NCBI RefSeq assembly: GCF_007994135.1
Contig: NZ_VLKF01000001.1
Span: forward strand, 1,922,001-1,986,000
DNA from: Modestobacter roseus
GTDB taxonomy: Bacteria; Actinomycetota; Actinomycetes; Mycobacteriales; Geodermatophilaceae
Reading direction: 5' to 3'
Length of the DNA stretch: 64,000 bases
Positions 60,033-64,000 of the stretch are shown piece after piece (position 1 is the first letter of the stretch; every line of letters starts with the position of its first letter). The notes under the pieces were generated by a model, which saw only the letters and a program-made list of their open reading frames with translations, did not search any database and was not told the origin of the DNA. A program made the translations under genes and the position numbers.

Positions 60033-60821
60033 TCAGCGGCCCGCGAGTGCGGCGAGCCGGCGCACCTGCGCCGCACGCTCGGCGGCGTCCTGCTCCTCGG
60101 GCCCGTTGCGGACCGCCGAGCGCAGCAGCGCCAGCGTCTCCCGGGCGGCCCCGGCGTCGGGCGTGAGCAGGGCGGCGACCAGGTCGTCCACGGTTCCGTC
60201 GAGCTGGCCCGCCGGGACGGCGACGGTGGCGAGCCCCGTGGCCACCGCCTCGTCGGCGCCCATCGCCCGCCCGGTCAGGCACAGCTCCACCGCGCGGCTG
60301 TAGCCGACCAGCTCGACCAGGGTGCTCGTGCCGGTGAGGTCGGGCACCAGCCCCAGGCCCGCCTCGGGCAGCCGCAGCTGCGCGTCGTCGGCGAGCACCC
60401 GGAGGTCGCAGGCGAGCGCCAGCTGCGCGCCGGCACCGATCGCATGGCCCTGGACGGCGGCGACCGAGACGATCCCCGGTGACCGCAGCCAGCGGAACCC
60501 GGCCTGGTACCCGCGGATCCGGTCCTGCGTCTGCTCCGCCGGCAGGGCCGCCAGCTCCCCCAGCCCGCCGGCCACCCCGGGCTCGACGCTGAACAGCGTG
60601 CGGTCCAGGCCTGCGGAGAACGACCGCCCGGCGCCGCGGACGACCACCACCCGCACGGCGTCGTCCAGCGACTCCCCCACCGCGCGGAGCGCCGCCCAGG
60701 TGGCGGGCGTCTGCGCGTTGAGCTGGTCGGCGCGGTCGAGGGTGACGGTGAGGACGGCGCCGTTGCGCGCCGTCCGCACCCACCCGTCGGCGTCGGCCCC
60801 GGCTGGCGGGGCCGACGTCAC
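60033..60821 (-). CDS. enoyl-CoA hydratase/isomerase
   Basis: The GTG at 60821 overlaps the stop of the small HTH gene (GTGA); product 262 residues. A crotonase-fold enzyme: VLTVTLDRADQLNAQTPATW, GAGRSFSAGLDRTLF (oxyanion loop), VAAVQGHAIGAGAQLALACD (oxyanion Gly), LRLPEAGLGLVPDLTGTSTL and MGADEAVATGLATVAVP. The first catalytic Glu of true hydratases is not obvious; the second may be in LPEAGLG. It hydrates or isomerises enoyl-CoA. The unit ABC-F / HTH / crotonase matches Mycobacterium Rv1473-Rv1473A-echA12 in content. Confidence 0.88.
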   Translation of the reverse strand: MTSAPPAGADADGWVRTARNGAVLTVTLDRADQLNAQTPATWAALRAVGESLDDAVRVVVVRGAGRSFSAGLDRTLFSVEPGVAGGLGELAALPAEQTQDRIRGYQAGFRWLRSPGIVSVAAVQGHAIGAGAQLALACDLRVLADDAQLRLPEAGLGLVPDLTGTSTLVELVGYSRAVELCLTGRAMGADEAVATGLATVAVPAGQLDGTVDDLVAALLTPDAGAARETLALLRSAVRNGPEEQDAAERAAQVRRLAALAGR

Positions 60822-61048
60822 GCGGACTTCTTCGCGTTCCGGTTGGCGCCACCCCGGCCGCGCAGTGTGGCCCCCGACTCCGACAGCAGCCGGTGCACGA
60901 ACCCGTAGGAGCGGTTGGTCGAGCTCGCCAGCGACCGGATGCTCTCGCCGTCGTCGTACCGTGCGCGGAGCTCGTCGGCGAGCGAGTTCCGGTCGTCGCC
61001 GGTGATCCGCTTGCCCTTGCTCAGGTCCGCAGTGCTCGAGTCGGCCAT
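60818..61048 (-). CDS. small helix-turn-helix protein (76 aa)
   Basis: The ATG at 61048 has GGAGGGGAG upstream. The 76 residues hold one HTH: ITGDDRNSLADELRARYDDG, ESIRSLASSTNRSYGFVHRL, LSESGATLRGRGG. This small protein type is widespread in actinobacteria and resembles Rv1473A, the putative regulator beside the ABC-F gene in mycobacteria. It overlaps the crotonase gene by 4 nt. The target is unknown. The 61049-61258 interval upstream holds no visible gene. Confidence 0.85.
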   Translation of the reverse strand: MADSSTADLSKGKRITGDDRNSLADELRARYDDGESIRSLASSTNRSYGFVHRLLSESGATLRGRGGANRNAKKSA

Positions 61049-61259
61049 GACTCCCCTCCGTGTCAGGGGTCCGCCGACGCCGTCGGTGGTTCCCGCTGAT
61101 CCCCCGGCGCCGTGTCCCGGTGACCTCGGCGTCCCGGAACCGATGATCACCCACCCGGCGGAGGTCGGCCACCGCAACTAGACCGCGCACCGCCGACTTC
61201 AGCAGCGCCCCAGGTCAGGGCCGCGTCGGCTGATCCTCGACGTGGAACCGTTACGCGAG

Positions 61260-61425
61260 TGAGACAAGGGCCTGAAGGCGCGCCACGGTCCGCCCCTCGG
61301 TCGCTGGCGCTCCCTGCGATGCTCCCGCGGCGCTCAGGCCAGTGGGACGAGGGCCTGAAGGCGCGCCACGGTCCGCCCCTCGGTCGCTGGCGCTCCCTGC
61401 GATGCTCCCGCGGCGCTCAGGCCAG
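61260..61425. repeat. two tandem 83-bp repeats carrying gene-tail-like sequence
   Basis: 61260-61342 and 61343-61425 are tandem copies with few differences (TGAGACAAGGGCC / TGGGACGAGGGCC). The second copy runs into the stop of the ABC-F gene. On the minus strand each unit spells an end like ALVPLA-stop or ALVSLA-stop, mimicking the DLVSLA-stop of the ABC-F protein. Each unit is bounded by the inverted GGCCTGA / TCAGGCC. It looks like an interspersed repeat family rather than plain slippage. A third partial unit begins at 61426. Confidence 0.75.
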
Positions 61426-63027
61426 CGAGACCAGGTCGGCGAGGTCCTCGCTCCAGGTGTCCTCGGTGCCGTCGGGCAGGATGATCACCTTGTCCGGGTT
61501 CAGCGCCCGCACCGCACCCTCGTCGTGGGTGACCAGCACGATCGCACCGCCGTAGGTGCGCAGCGCCTCGAGCACCTGCTCCCGGCTGGCCGGGTCGAGG
61601 TTGTTGGTCGGCTCGTCCAGCAGCAGGACGTTGGCGCCGGAGATGACCAGGGTGGCCATCGCCAGCCGGGTGCGCTCACCGCCGGAGAGCGTGCCGGTGC
61701 GCTGGTCGACCGCCTCGCCGGAGAACAGGAACGCGCCGAGGATGCGCCGCAGCTCGGTGTCGGTGCTGTCCGGCGCCGCCGACCGCATGTTCTCCAGCAG
61801 CGTGCGGTCCATGTCCAGGGTCTCGTGCTCCTGGGCGTAGTAGCCCACCCGCAGCCCGTGCCCGGCCTTGACCTCGCCGGTGTCCGGCGATTCGGTGCCG
61901 GCCAGCATCCGCAGCAGCGTCGTCTTGCCGGCACCGTTGAAGCCCAGGACGACCACCCGGGTGCCCTTGTCGATCGCCAGGTCGACGCCGGTGAAGATCT
62001 CCAGCGAGCCGTAGCTCTTGCTCAGCCCCTCCGCGGTCAGCGGCGTCCGGCCGCAGGCGGCCGGGGTCGGGAAGCGGAGCTTGGCGACCTTGTCCTGCAC
62101 CCGCACGTCGGCCAGGCCGGCGGCCAGCCGGGCCGCGCGCTTGTCCATGCTCTGCGCGGCCTTGGCCTTGGTCGCCTTGGCGCGCATCTTGTCGGCCTGG
62201 CTGGTCAGCGCGTCGATCTTCTTCTCCGCGTTGGCCCGCTCGGACCGGCGGCGGCGCTCGTCGGTCTCCCGAGCGTCCAGGTACCGCTTCCAGCCCAGGT
62301 TGTAGACGTCGACGGTCGCCCGGTTGGCGTCCAGGTGCCACACCTTGTTGACCACGGCCTCGAGCAGCTCGACGTCGTGGCTGATCACGATCAGTCCGGC
62401 CCGGTGGCTGGCCAGGTAGCCCTTGAGCCAGGTGATCGAGTCGGCGTCCAGGTGGTTGGTCGGCTCGTCGAGCAGCAGGGTGTCGGCGTCGGAGAAGAGG
62501 ATCCGGGCCAGCTCGACCCGGCGGCGCTGGCCACCGGAGAGGGTGCGCAGCGGCTGCTCGAGGATCCGGTCCGGCAGGCCGAGGTTGGAGCAGATCCGCG
62601 CGGCGTCGGACTCCGCGGCGTACCCGCCCATCGCGGCGAACTGGTCCTCCAGCCGGCCGTAGCGGCGCACCGCGCGGTCGCGTTCGGCGTCGTCGGCCGG
62701 CTCGGCCATCGCCACCTGCGCCTTGGTCAGCTGGGCCTTGAGGACGTCGAGGCCGCGGCCGGAGAGGACGCGGTCGCTGGCGGTGATGTCCAGGTCGCCG
62801 CTGCGGGGGTCCTGCGGCAGGTACCCGAGCTCACCGGTCACGTCGACCTTGCCGGCGTGCGGCACGCGCTCACCGGCGAGGGTGGTGAGGGTGGTGGTCT
62901 TGCCGGCACCGTTGCGCCCGACCAGCCCGATGCGGTCACCGGGCTGGACCCGCAGATCGGCGTCGCTGATGAGGATCCGGGCGCCGGCGCGCAGTTCGAG
63001 GCCGGTCGTCGTGATCACTGATCCCAT
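61417..63027 (-). CDS. ABC-F family ATPase (two nucleotide-binding domains)
   Basis: A 536-residue soluble ABC-F protein without membrane segments. Domain 1: Walker A GRNGAGKTTT, signature LSGGQRRRVELARIL, Walker B LLLDEPTNHLD, H-loop ISHDVELL. A ~80-residue linker (ERRRRSERANAEKKIDALTS, helical and charged) joins domain 2: GFNGAGKTTLL, LSGGERTRLAMATLV, LLLDEPTNNLD. ABC-F proteins act on the ribosome as translation or antibiotic-protection factors. It matches Rv1473 in neighbourhood (small HTH and crotonase genes follow). The start is ATG 63027. Confidence 0.93.
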   Translation of the reverse strand: MGSVITTTGLELRAGARILISDADLRVQPGDRIGLVGRNGAGKTTTLTTLAGERVPHAGKVDVTGELGYLPQDPRSGDLDITASDRVLSGRGLDVLKAQLTKAQVAMAEPADDAERDRAVRRYGRLEDQFAAMGGYAAESDAARICSNLGLPDRILEQPLRTLSGGQRRRVELARILFSDADTLLLDEPTNHLDADSITWLKGYLASHRAGLIVISHDVELLEAVVNKVWHLDANRATVDVYNLGWKRYLDARETDERRRRSERANAEKKIDALTSQADKMRAKATKAKAAQSMDKRAARLAAGLADVRVQDKVAKLRFPTPAACGRTPLTAEGLSKSYGSLEIFTGVDLAIDKGTRVVVLGFNGAGKTTLLRMLAGTESPDTGEVKAGHGLRVGYYAQEHETLDMDRTLLENMRSAAPDSTDTELRRILGAFLFSGEAVDQRTGTLSGGERTRLAMATLVISGANVLLLDEPTNNLDPASREQVLEALRTYGGAIVLVTHDEGAVRALNPDKVIILPDGTEDTWSEDLADLVSLA

Positions 63028-63077
63028 GGTAGGCGCTCGACCACGATCGGCCGACCCCTTTCCCGGGTGACCTCCAC

Positions 63078-63387
63078 GTCATCCAGGTGCGACGTCATCC
63101 AGGTGCGGCGTCATCCAGGTGCGGCGTCATCCAGGTGCGGCGTCATCCAGGTGCGGCGTCATCCAGGTGCGGCGTCATCCAGGTGCGGCGTCATCCAGGT
63201 GCGGCGTCATCCAGGTGCGGCGTCATCCAGGTGCGGCGTCATCCAGGTGCGGCGTCATCCAGGTGCGGCGTCATCCAGGTGCGGCGTCATCCAGGTGCGG
63301 CGTCATCCAGGTGCGGCGTCATCCAGGTGCGGCGTCATCCAGGTGCGGCGTCATCCAGGTGCGGCGTCATCCAGGTGCGGCGTCATC
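63078..63387. repeat. 16-bp tandem repeat, 19 copies
   Basis: The unit GTCATCCAGGTGCGGC repeats 19 times from 63078 to 63381, then a partial GTCATC. Only the first unit differs (GCGAC end). There are no spacers, so it is not CRISPR. 16 bp is not a multiple of three, so all frames read through as artefacts. It lies between the divergent ABC-F and membrane-protein genes and is a good VNTR candidate. Confidence 0.95.
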
Positions 63388-63461
63388 GCCGTCCACCCCG
63401 CGGGCGACCGGCCCCGCCCGTAGCGTGACGGGGAGCAGTCGCAGCCGGGAGGAGGACCACC

Positions 63462-64000
63462 GTGCCGTCGCCGGAGGTCGACTACCCGCCCCCGCTGGGC
63501 CGGCCGCTGCCGCCGCCCTCCGCCCCGGCCGAGTCCGGCGCCGGCGACCACACGCCCCAGGACATCGCACCCCAGCAGGTGTTGCTCGGGGCCGGAGCGG
63601 TCGCCGTGGTCGCCGCCGGCGCCGCGTCGCTCACCGACGCGAGCTCCGTCCCGGGCCTGCTGGTGGTCCTGGTGCTGACCGTCGCCGCCACCCTGGGCTC
63701 GCTGCGGGCCGGCCGCCGGGGACTCCGCAGCAGCGAGGAGGCCCTCGCCTCGGCCGCCGTGGTGCTCGCCGCGGTGGGCGCGTGGTCGGCCGGGGACGGC
63801 GCCGGCGCCCCGACCGGCGCGCTCCTGCTGCTGCTCGCCGCGGTGTTCGCGGTGCTCGGCCTGATCGGGCGGTCGACGCTCACCTGGCCCATCGCCGCGT
63901 GGGGAGGCGGTCAGGGCGCGGTGCTGAGCGCGCTCACCGGCTCCGGGCTCTCGTTGGCCCCGCATGCCAGCGCGGTGCTGGGCACCGCGGTCGTCGGTGT
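63462..64000 (+). CDS. multi-helix membrane protein (3'-truncated by window edge)
   Basis: The GTG at 63462 has GGGAGGAGG 6 nt upstream; no stop is reached, so at least 179 residues. After a Pro-rich cytoplasmic lead (PPPLGRPLPPPSAP, ~40 residues) come hydrophobic segments: VLLGAGAVAVVAAGAASL, VPGLLVVLVLTVAATLGSL, ALASAAVVLAAVGAWSA, TGALLLLLAAVFAVLGLIG. This Pro-rich-lead plus many-helix design resembles large actinobacterial membrane proteins of unknown role (SCO7613-like), but the family is not certain from this part. Confidence 0.7.
   Translation, partial: MPSPEVDYPPPLGRPLPPPSAPAESGAGDHTPQDIAPQQVLLGAGAVAVVAAGAASLTDASSVPGLLVVLVLTVAATLGSLRAGRRGLRSSEEALASAAVVLAAVGAWSAGDGAGAPTGALLLLLAAVFAVLGLIGRSTLTWPIAAWGGGQGAVLSALTGSGLSLAPHASAVLGTAVVG

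Follow-up and report, generated by a model that had tools for sequence, protein, structure and literature searches.

A tandem array of nineteen 16-bp units lies between an ABC-F ATPase gene and a divergently oriented membrane-protein gene in Modestobacter roseus. The array is a minisatellite in a divergent promoter region, a kind of feature that is already known. In our judgment it is probably a young, lineage-specific minisatellite made by slippage, whose effect is most likely neutral or slight and whose copy number most likely differs from strain to strain. It begins inside a conserved element upstream of the ABC-F gene, and the same position in a related genome without the array looks like the state that preceded the expansion.

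Results

Within the window (the whole 64,000-nucleotide stretch of DNA that was analyzed), TRF places the array at 63077–63387, with a period of 16, 19.4 copies, 99% matches, and a score of 615, the highest among its 19 rows. Nineteen full units occupy 63077–63380. Units 2–19 all read CGTCATCCAGGTGCGG, while unit 1 has A instead of G as its last base, and a partial last unit of 7 bp, CGTCATC, follows at 63381–63387. Identity at a shift of 16 extends over 63076–63387; the base preceding unit 1 is A, as is the last base of unit 1, and all later junctions carry G. The units thus lie head to tail, are near identical, and fall in the range of about 10–60 bp by which minisatellites are defined. Both TRF and a unit-by-unit reading confirm the original prediction of 19 copies, 18 of them identical. 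That prediction had placed the array at 63078–63387; the end holds, and the start was off by one, since the array begins at 63077. Its placement of the array between divergent genes and their likely promoters was sound, with the ABC-F gene on the minus strand and the membrane-protein gene on the plus strand, as was its statement that a 16-bp period keeps no reading frame. The minus strand has 6 or 7 stops per frame. The plus strand is open in all three frames because the unit is stop-free and its period is not a multiple of 3. As a matter of helical arithmetic, which is not evidence of function, one unit corresponds to 1.52 turns (16/10.5), so that flanking sites would face opposite sides of the DNA with odd and with even numbers of units, and 304 bp corresponds to 28.95 turns.

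To place the array in its genomic context, we sampled 464 kb of the host genome (4.5 Mb in two contigs), namely the window and 20 stretches of 20 kb, or about a tenth of the whole. The next best near-perfect array of at least four copies in this sample has a 15-bp unit, 5.1 copies, and a score of 131, and among two-copy repeats, which have longer units, the top score is 328. In the sampled 464 kb, an array so long and so nearly perfect is an outlier, a point that weighs against reading it as an ordinary minisatellite. We take its origin by chance to be excluded, without attaching a formal probability. In four other genus members, each sampled in five 20-kb stretches, there were arrays with higher scores (a 114-bp unit with 4.7 copies at 87% and a score of 751; a 366-bp unit with 5.3 copies at 75% and a score of 1725), which are built of long, less perfect units. 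No short-period, near-perfect array of at least 10 copies was found in these 100 kb per genome.

The array is confined to its host among the relatives that could be read. A pattern of two units, allowing at most two mismatches, occurs in one of 59 genomes, the host itself, and solely at this locus; 50 of the 59 genomes have a completeness of at least 90%. An exact 23-base pattern gives the same result, the array being absent from the 58 other relatives, and an exact scan of a genome contig collection, from which the host's own genome was possibly excluded, returned no array match. The genome collections searched hold one genome per species. When the ABC-F protein was used to search the 22 other genomes of the genus, the upstream region was readable in 18; the remaining four gave matches lacking the 5′ end (G012, G019) or weaker matches that apparently represent other ABC-F genes (G002, G016). 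None of the 18 readable members has an intergenic array upstream of the ABC-F gene. None of the TRF repeats in their first 460 bases begins before base 166, and most begin in the coding sequence of the next gene. Across the family, the ABC-F gene was found at E ≤ 1e-280 in 92 of 96 genomes, comprising 18 from the genus, host included, and 74 others. All but one of these others (G074) were read, and no comparable array is present in any of the 73; TRF rows starting in their first 200 bases have 1.9 to 5.2 copies, none with three copies at 90%.

One relative, locus L022, reveals how the site may have looked earlier. With the array removed, the host intergenic region aligns with that of L022 on both sides. 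At the place of the array, L022 carries CGTCATCC and GGTCATCG, whose common word GTCATC recurs 20 bp apart; the host has CGTCATC at both ends of its array, in the same contexts. Between the ABC-F start and the ribosome-binding site of the other gene there are 424 bp in the host, 141 bp in L022, and 132–134 bp in L026, L028, and L029, so that the L022 intergenic region is 283 bp shorter than that of the host. In the relatives this short region keeps the conserved element of the ABC-F gene near the start of the neighboring gene. L022 accordingly looks, from this alignment, like the state before expansion. Since the context to the right of the partial unit at 63381–63387 also aligns with L022, this partial unit is probably the ancestral right-hand copy of the direct repeat. 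In L022 the spacing between the two words is 20 bp rather than 16, and their common length is 6 bp rather than 7, so the exact ancestor is not seen. L022 is a single relative, and the other aligned relatives do not have the pair of GTCATC words. The absence of the array from all readable genus (18 of 18) and other family members (73 of 73), together with the identity of 18 units, supports a recent expansion and upholds the earlier claim of recent expansion or homogenization.

The array begins within a conserved element. The ABC-F gene itself (61417–63027, minus strand) matches NCBIfam NF000355.4 (383.7 bits, with the cut-off at 380). Upstream of it, at a distance of about 40 bp from the gene or from its likely −10, lies an 18-bp element at 63066–63083, with a family consensus of about GGTGAYRTSSRCGKCAYC. 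The array starts at the twelfth base of this element, such that the right half of the element forms the start of the first unit. Its left part, GGTGAY, is present in all 19 genus genomes, host included, and in 67 of 73 other family genomes; of 88 anchored sequences, 83 have it at offset 40 or 41, the corresponding figure for shuffles being 1.4%. A second block, GKCA, follows six bases after GGTGAY in 62 of the 83. The genomes without GGTGAY at its place are G083, G084, G089, G024, G110, and G111; in G083 the word is off by one base (CGTGAC), and in G110 the element is present and displaced by an extra stretch. To our knowledge, this element has no name and no binding protein.

Each of the 19 units carries the right half-site of the element, CGTCATCC, a score reached at 0.033% of positions on one strand of a 400-kb background. 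The full element is not rebuilt within the array, where the best site falls in the 4.6% background tail. The array is therefore not a tandem operator array with a full element in each unit, since the right half-site alone recurs.

In four genus members (L030, L034, L036, L038), a perfect 20-bp palindrome, GGGTGACGTGCACGTCACCC, lies upstream of the ABC-F gene. Three further genus members have 9 of 10 pairs; among 2000 shuffles, one reached 10 and eight reached 9. The most symmetric window lies elsewhere in L023, L027, L031, L037, and L039, and the form found in the wider family is asymmetric. We therefore rejected the palindrome as a conserved property of the element. As the candidate signal of a possible regulon, the genus-type palindrome GGTGACNTNNACGTCACC was also sought in 22 genomes, 14 of the genus and 8 of the order. 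Among the matches listed, eight genus genomes have an exact copy at this locus, and two exact copies lie elsewhere (G011, G003). When one mismatch is allowed, the matches listed include eight rows in the host (this locus and five other places) compared with none for the reversed control, and nearly all genomes exceed the reversed control among the matches listed.

By eye, many relatives carry CTG at the position of the host's ATG of the ABC-F gene, and the true start may for this reason be a GTG at codon 4. Within 63010–63027, the apparent ATG may overlap a −10 box, TACCAT, again by eye; many relatives have TATCCT or TACCCT at this −10 position, without an ATG. Judged from these letters, the gene may be leaderless with a GTG start. 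No sigma-70 consensus promoters or terminators were found in 62950–63520, and the −10 boxes were assigned by eye.

On the other side of the array, the 5′ part of the divergent gene runs from 63462 to 64000 on the plus strand. The gene is complete in L020 (2463–4313) and encodes a 616-aa protein that is apparently polytopic, with 16 strongly hydrophobic 19-aa windows and no Pfam match. A scan of the contig collection gave one confirmed relative, from an uncultured Modestobacter, with 73% identity in the best segment. Two 100-base pieces of L022, which is a locus of genus member G017, have exact matches in that Modestobacter record, so the genus is Modestobacter or very near it. A possible −10 of this gene, TAGCGT at 63421–63426 (plus strand), was picked by eye in a stretch common to L022, L026, L028, and L029. 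Separately, the first 400 bases past the ABC-F start in L023, L025, L026, L028, and L029 contain imperfect tandem repeats of 12–45 bp, in varying number. These sit in the N-terminal coding region of the membrane-protein gene and have periods that are multiples of 3, so the N terminus of this protein probably varies in length between species.

Two neighboring features were also recorded. Directly downstream of the ABC-F gene, at 61258–61435, lie 2.1 tandem copies of an 83-bp unit from a dispersed repeat family that has 17 matches in the host and further matches in 23 of 23 genus genomes and 27 of 39 genomes overall. Tandem copies of this family, 82 bp apart, also occur in G008 (C1, from 393560 onward) and in G004 (C184). 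A small protein at 60818–61177 has a Pfam HTH_58 domain (103.4 bits) and resembles the Cbp1 CRISPR-repeat-binding model weakly, at a score far below threshold (28.5 bits, the cut-off being 140).

Several other identities for the array were tried and set aside. A protein-coding repeat is not supported, since the open plus-strand frames follow from the unit and its period and the array is absent in the relatives read. A structured RNA or hairpin was rejected as well: 60900–64000 has no Rfam match at gathering thresholds, and four units fold on either strand much as their shuffles do (z of −0.52 and 0.14). The units are contiguous and without spacers, which rejects a CRISPR array. An iteron cluster of a replication origin did not fit either, as no replication initiator was found among the five neighboring proteins scanned (the ABC-F protein, an ABC transporter, an enoyl-CoA hydratase relative, an HTH protein, and the membrane protein without a Pfam match). 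A mobile or plasmid origin is not supported, 63000–63500 having no plasmid match. Fifty-five viral contigs contain a 15-mer of the unit, once per stretch, which we take as chance in a large collection.

Discussion

The comparison with relatives suggests a route by which the array could have arisen. Slipped-strand mispairing or unequal exchange between two CGTCATC direct repeats, then 16 bp apart, would have produced a first duplication. Further rounds of the same process would then have amplified the units and homogenized them. Under this scheme, the left edge would be expected to keep the older base A while the interior of the array was homogenized, which is the pattern of A and G that unit 1 and the later junctions display. 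Both the array-less and the array-bearing states are seen; the mechanism that connects them is what we infer.

What such an expansion would do to the two genes can be gauged from what it displaces. The sequence from the element to the ABC-F start is in register with that of relatives, which makes an effect on the ABC-F gene less likely than one on the membrane-protein gene. The ABC-F side and the likely TAGCGT −10 are both kept, placing the array between two likely promoters and widening the gap from the element to the likely promoter of the membrane-protein gene by about 290 bp. The ABC-F side would thus be left unchanged, whereas the membrane-protein promoter, shifted by about 290 bp from the element, would lose any control that it shared with the element. 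We think it most likely that the array affects the ABC-F gene little or not at all and the membrane-protein gene weakly or not at all.

These expectations can be set against more active roles for the array, and against the possibility that it is an error. Regarding the latter, how many identical units a repeat contains is difficult to settle from short reads, which favors an assembly artefact with a wrong copy number or a spurious expansion. However, unit 1 differs at one base, both flanks match relatives, and the 4.51-Mb contig suggests, without showing, that long reads were used; an artefact is thus very improbable. A greater, if still low, likelihood attaches to a switch in which copy number would tune the membrane-protein promoter, each unit altering the spacing or turning the element by about half a helical turn. 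The location between divergent genes is favorable to such a switch, and repeats with comparable behavior have been described. Tandem repeats in Mycobacterium tuberculosis promoters are reported to change copy number (PMC12817950), and repeats are also reported to act at promoters that are divergent or spaced, those of hifA/hifB and nadA among them (PMC3899988). In contrast, the array occurs in no relative read, so that no conserved switch exists among them. A separation of 300 bp, moreover, is past the usual spacing range of promoter elements, which also weighs against tuning by copy number. It is less probable again that a factor recognizing the ABC-F element binds the repeated half-sites, which would serve as its local sink or landing platform. 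The presence of the half-site in all 19 units, given how seldom an equal score is reached in the background, speaks for binding of this kind. Nevertheless, descent would by itself lead one to expect the half-site in every unit, no full element is rebuilt in the array, and we know of no protein that binds the element. The left end of the array (63076/63077), near the right half of the element, could reflect selection for extra half-sites rather than accident. We give marginally less credence still to a combined scheme in which the half-site array, multiplied by slippage, would serve both as a tunable sink and as a spacer uncoupling the membrane-protein gene from ABC-F control, and in which odd and even copy numbers would put the element on opposite sides of the helix.

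A young minisatellite of slight or no effect remains the reading that we favor, and it fits a broader class. Bacterial minisatellites in general are short in period, near identical, intergenic, and lineage-specific, and the array shares these properties. It differs from them in that its unit begins inside a conserved element upstream of a promoter. It is useful to compare the array with better-studied repeats. As described in PMC12817950, the M. tuberculosis VNTRs upstream of dop, lpdA, and cysG are likewise head-to-tail repeats by actinobacterial promoters, and lpdA and cysG are leaderless, as the ABC-F gene here may be. The same paper puts copy-number change in promoter tandem repeats of M. 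tuberculosis at 10^-2 to 10^-3 per chromosome and names lpdA as a case with evidence for expression set by copy number. By comparison, these VNTRs have longer units (54–56 bp for cysG), few copies, and observed variation, whereas the present array has 19 copies of 16 bp. According to PMC3899988, the repeats of Haemophilus influenzae hifA/hifB and Neisseria meningitidis nadA also lie in divergent or multisite promoter regions, where they change spacing or factor binding. Those repeats have units of 2 and 4 bp, with reported effects; the 16-bp units here lie outside both likely core promoters. Among titles and the opening parts of abstracts on tandem repeats in Modestobacter or Geodermatophilaceae and on 16-bp repeats, no report on this array was found.

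If the array is ordinary, it offers a possible locus for strain typing, and it is a clear case of minisatellite origin, because array-less relatives display the earlier state. If it is functional, the locus would serve as a natural experiment on the ways in which two divergent promoters are coupled or uncoupled by repeat number and helical phase, beside a conserved element. Overall, the more durable by-product of the analysis is the conserved element that this family carries upstream of its ABC-F gene.
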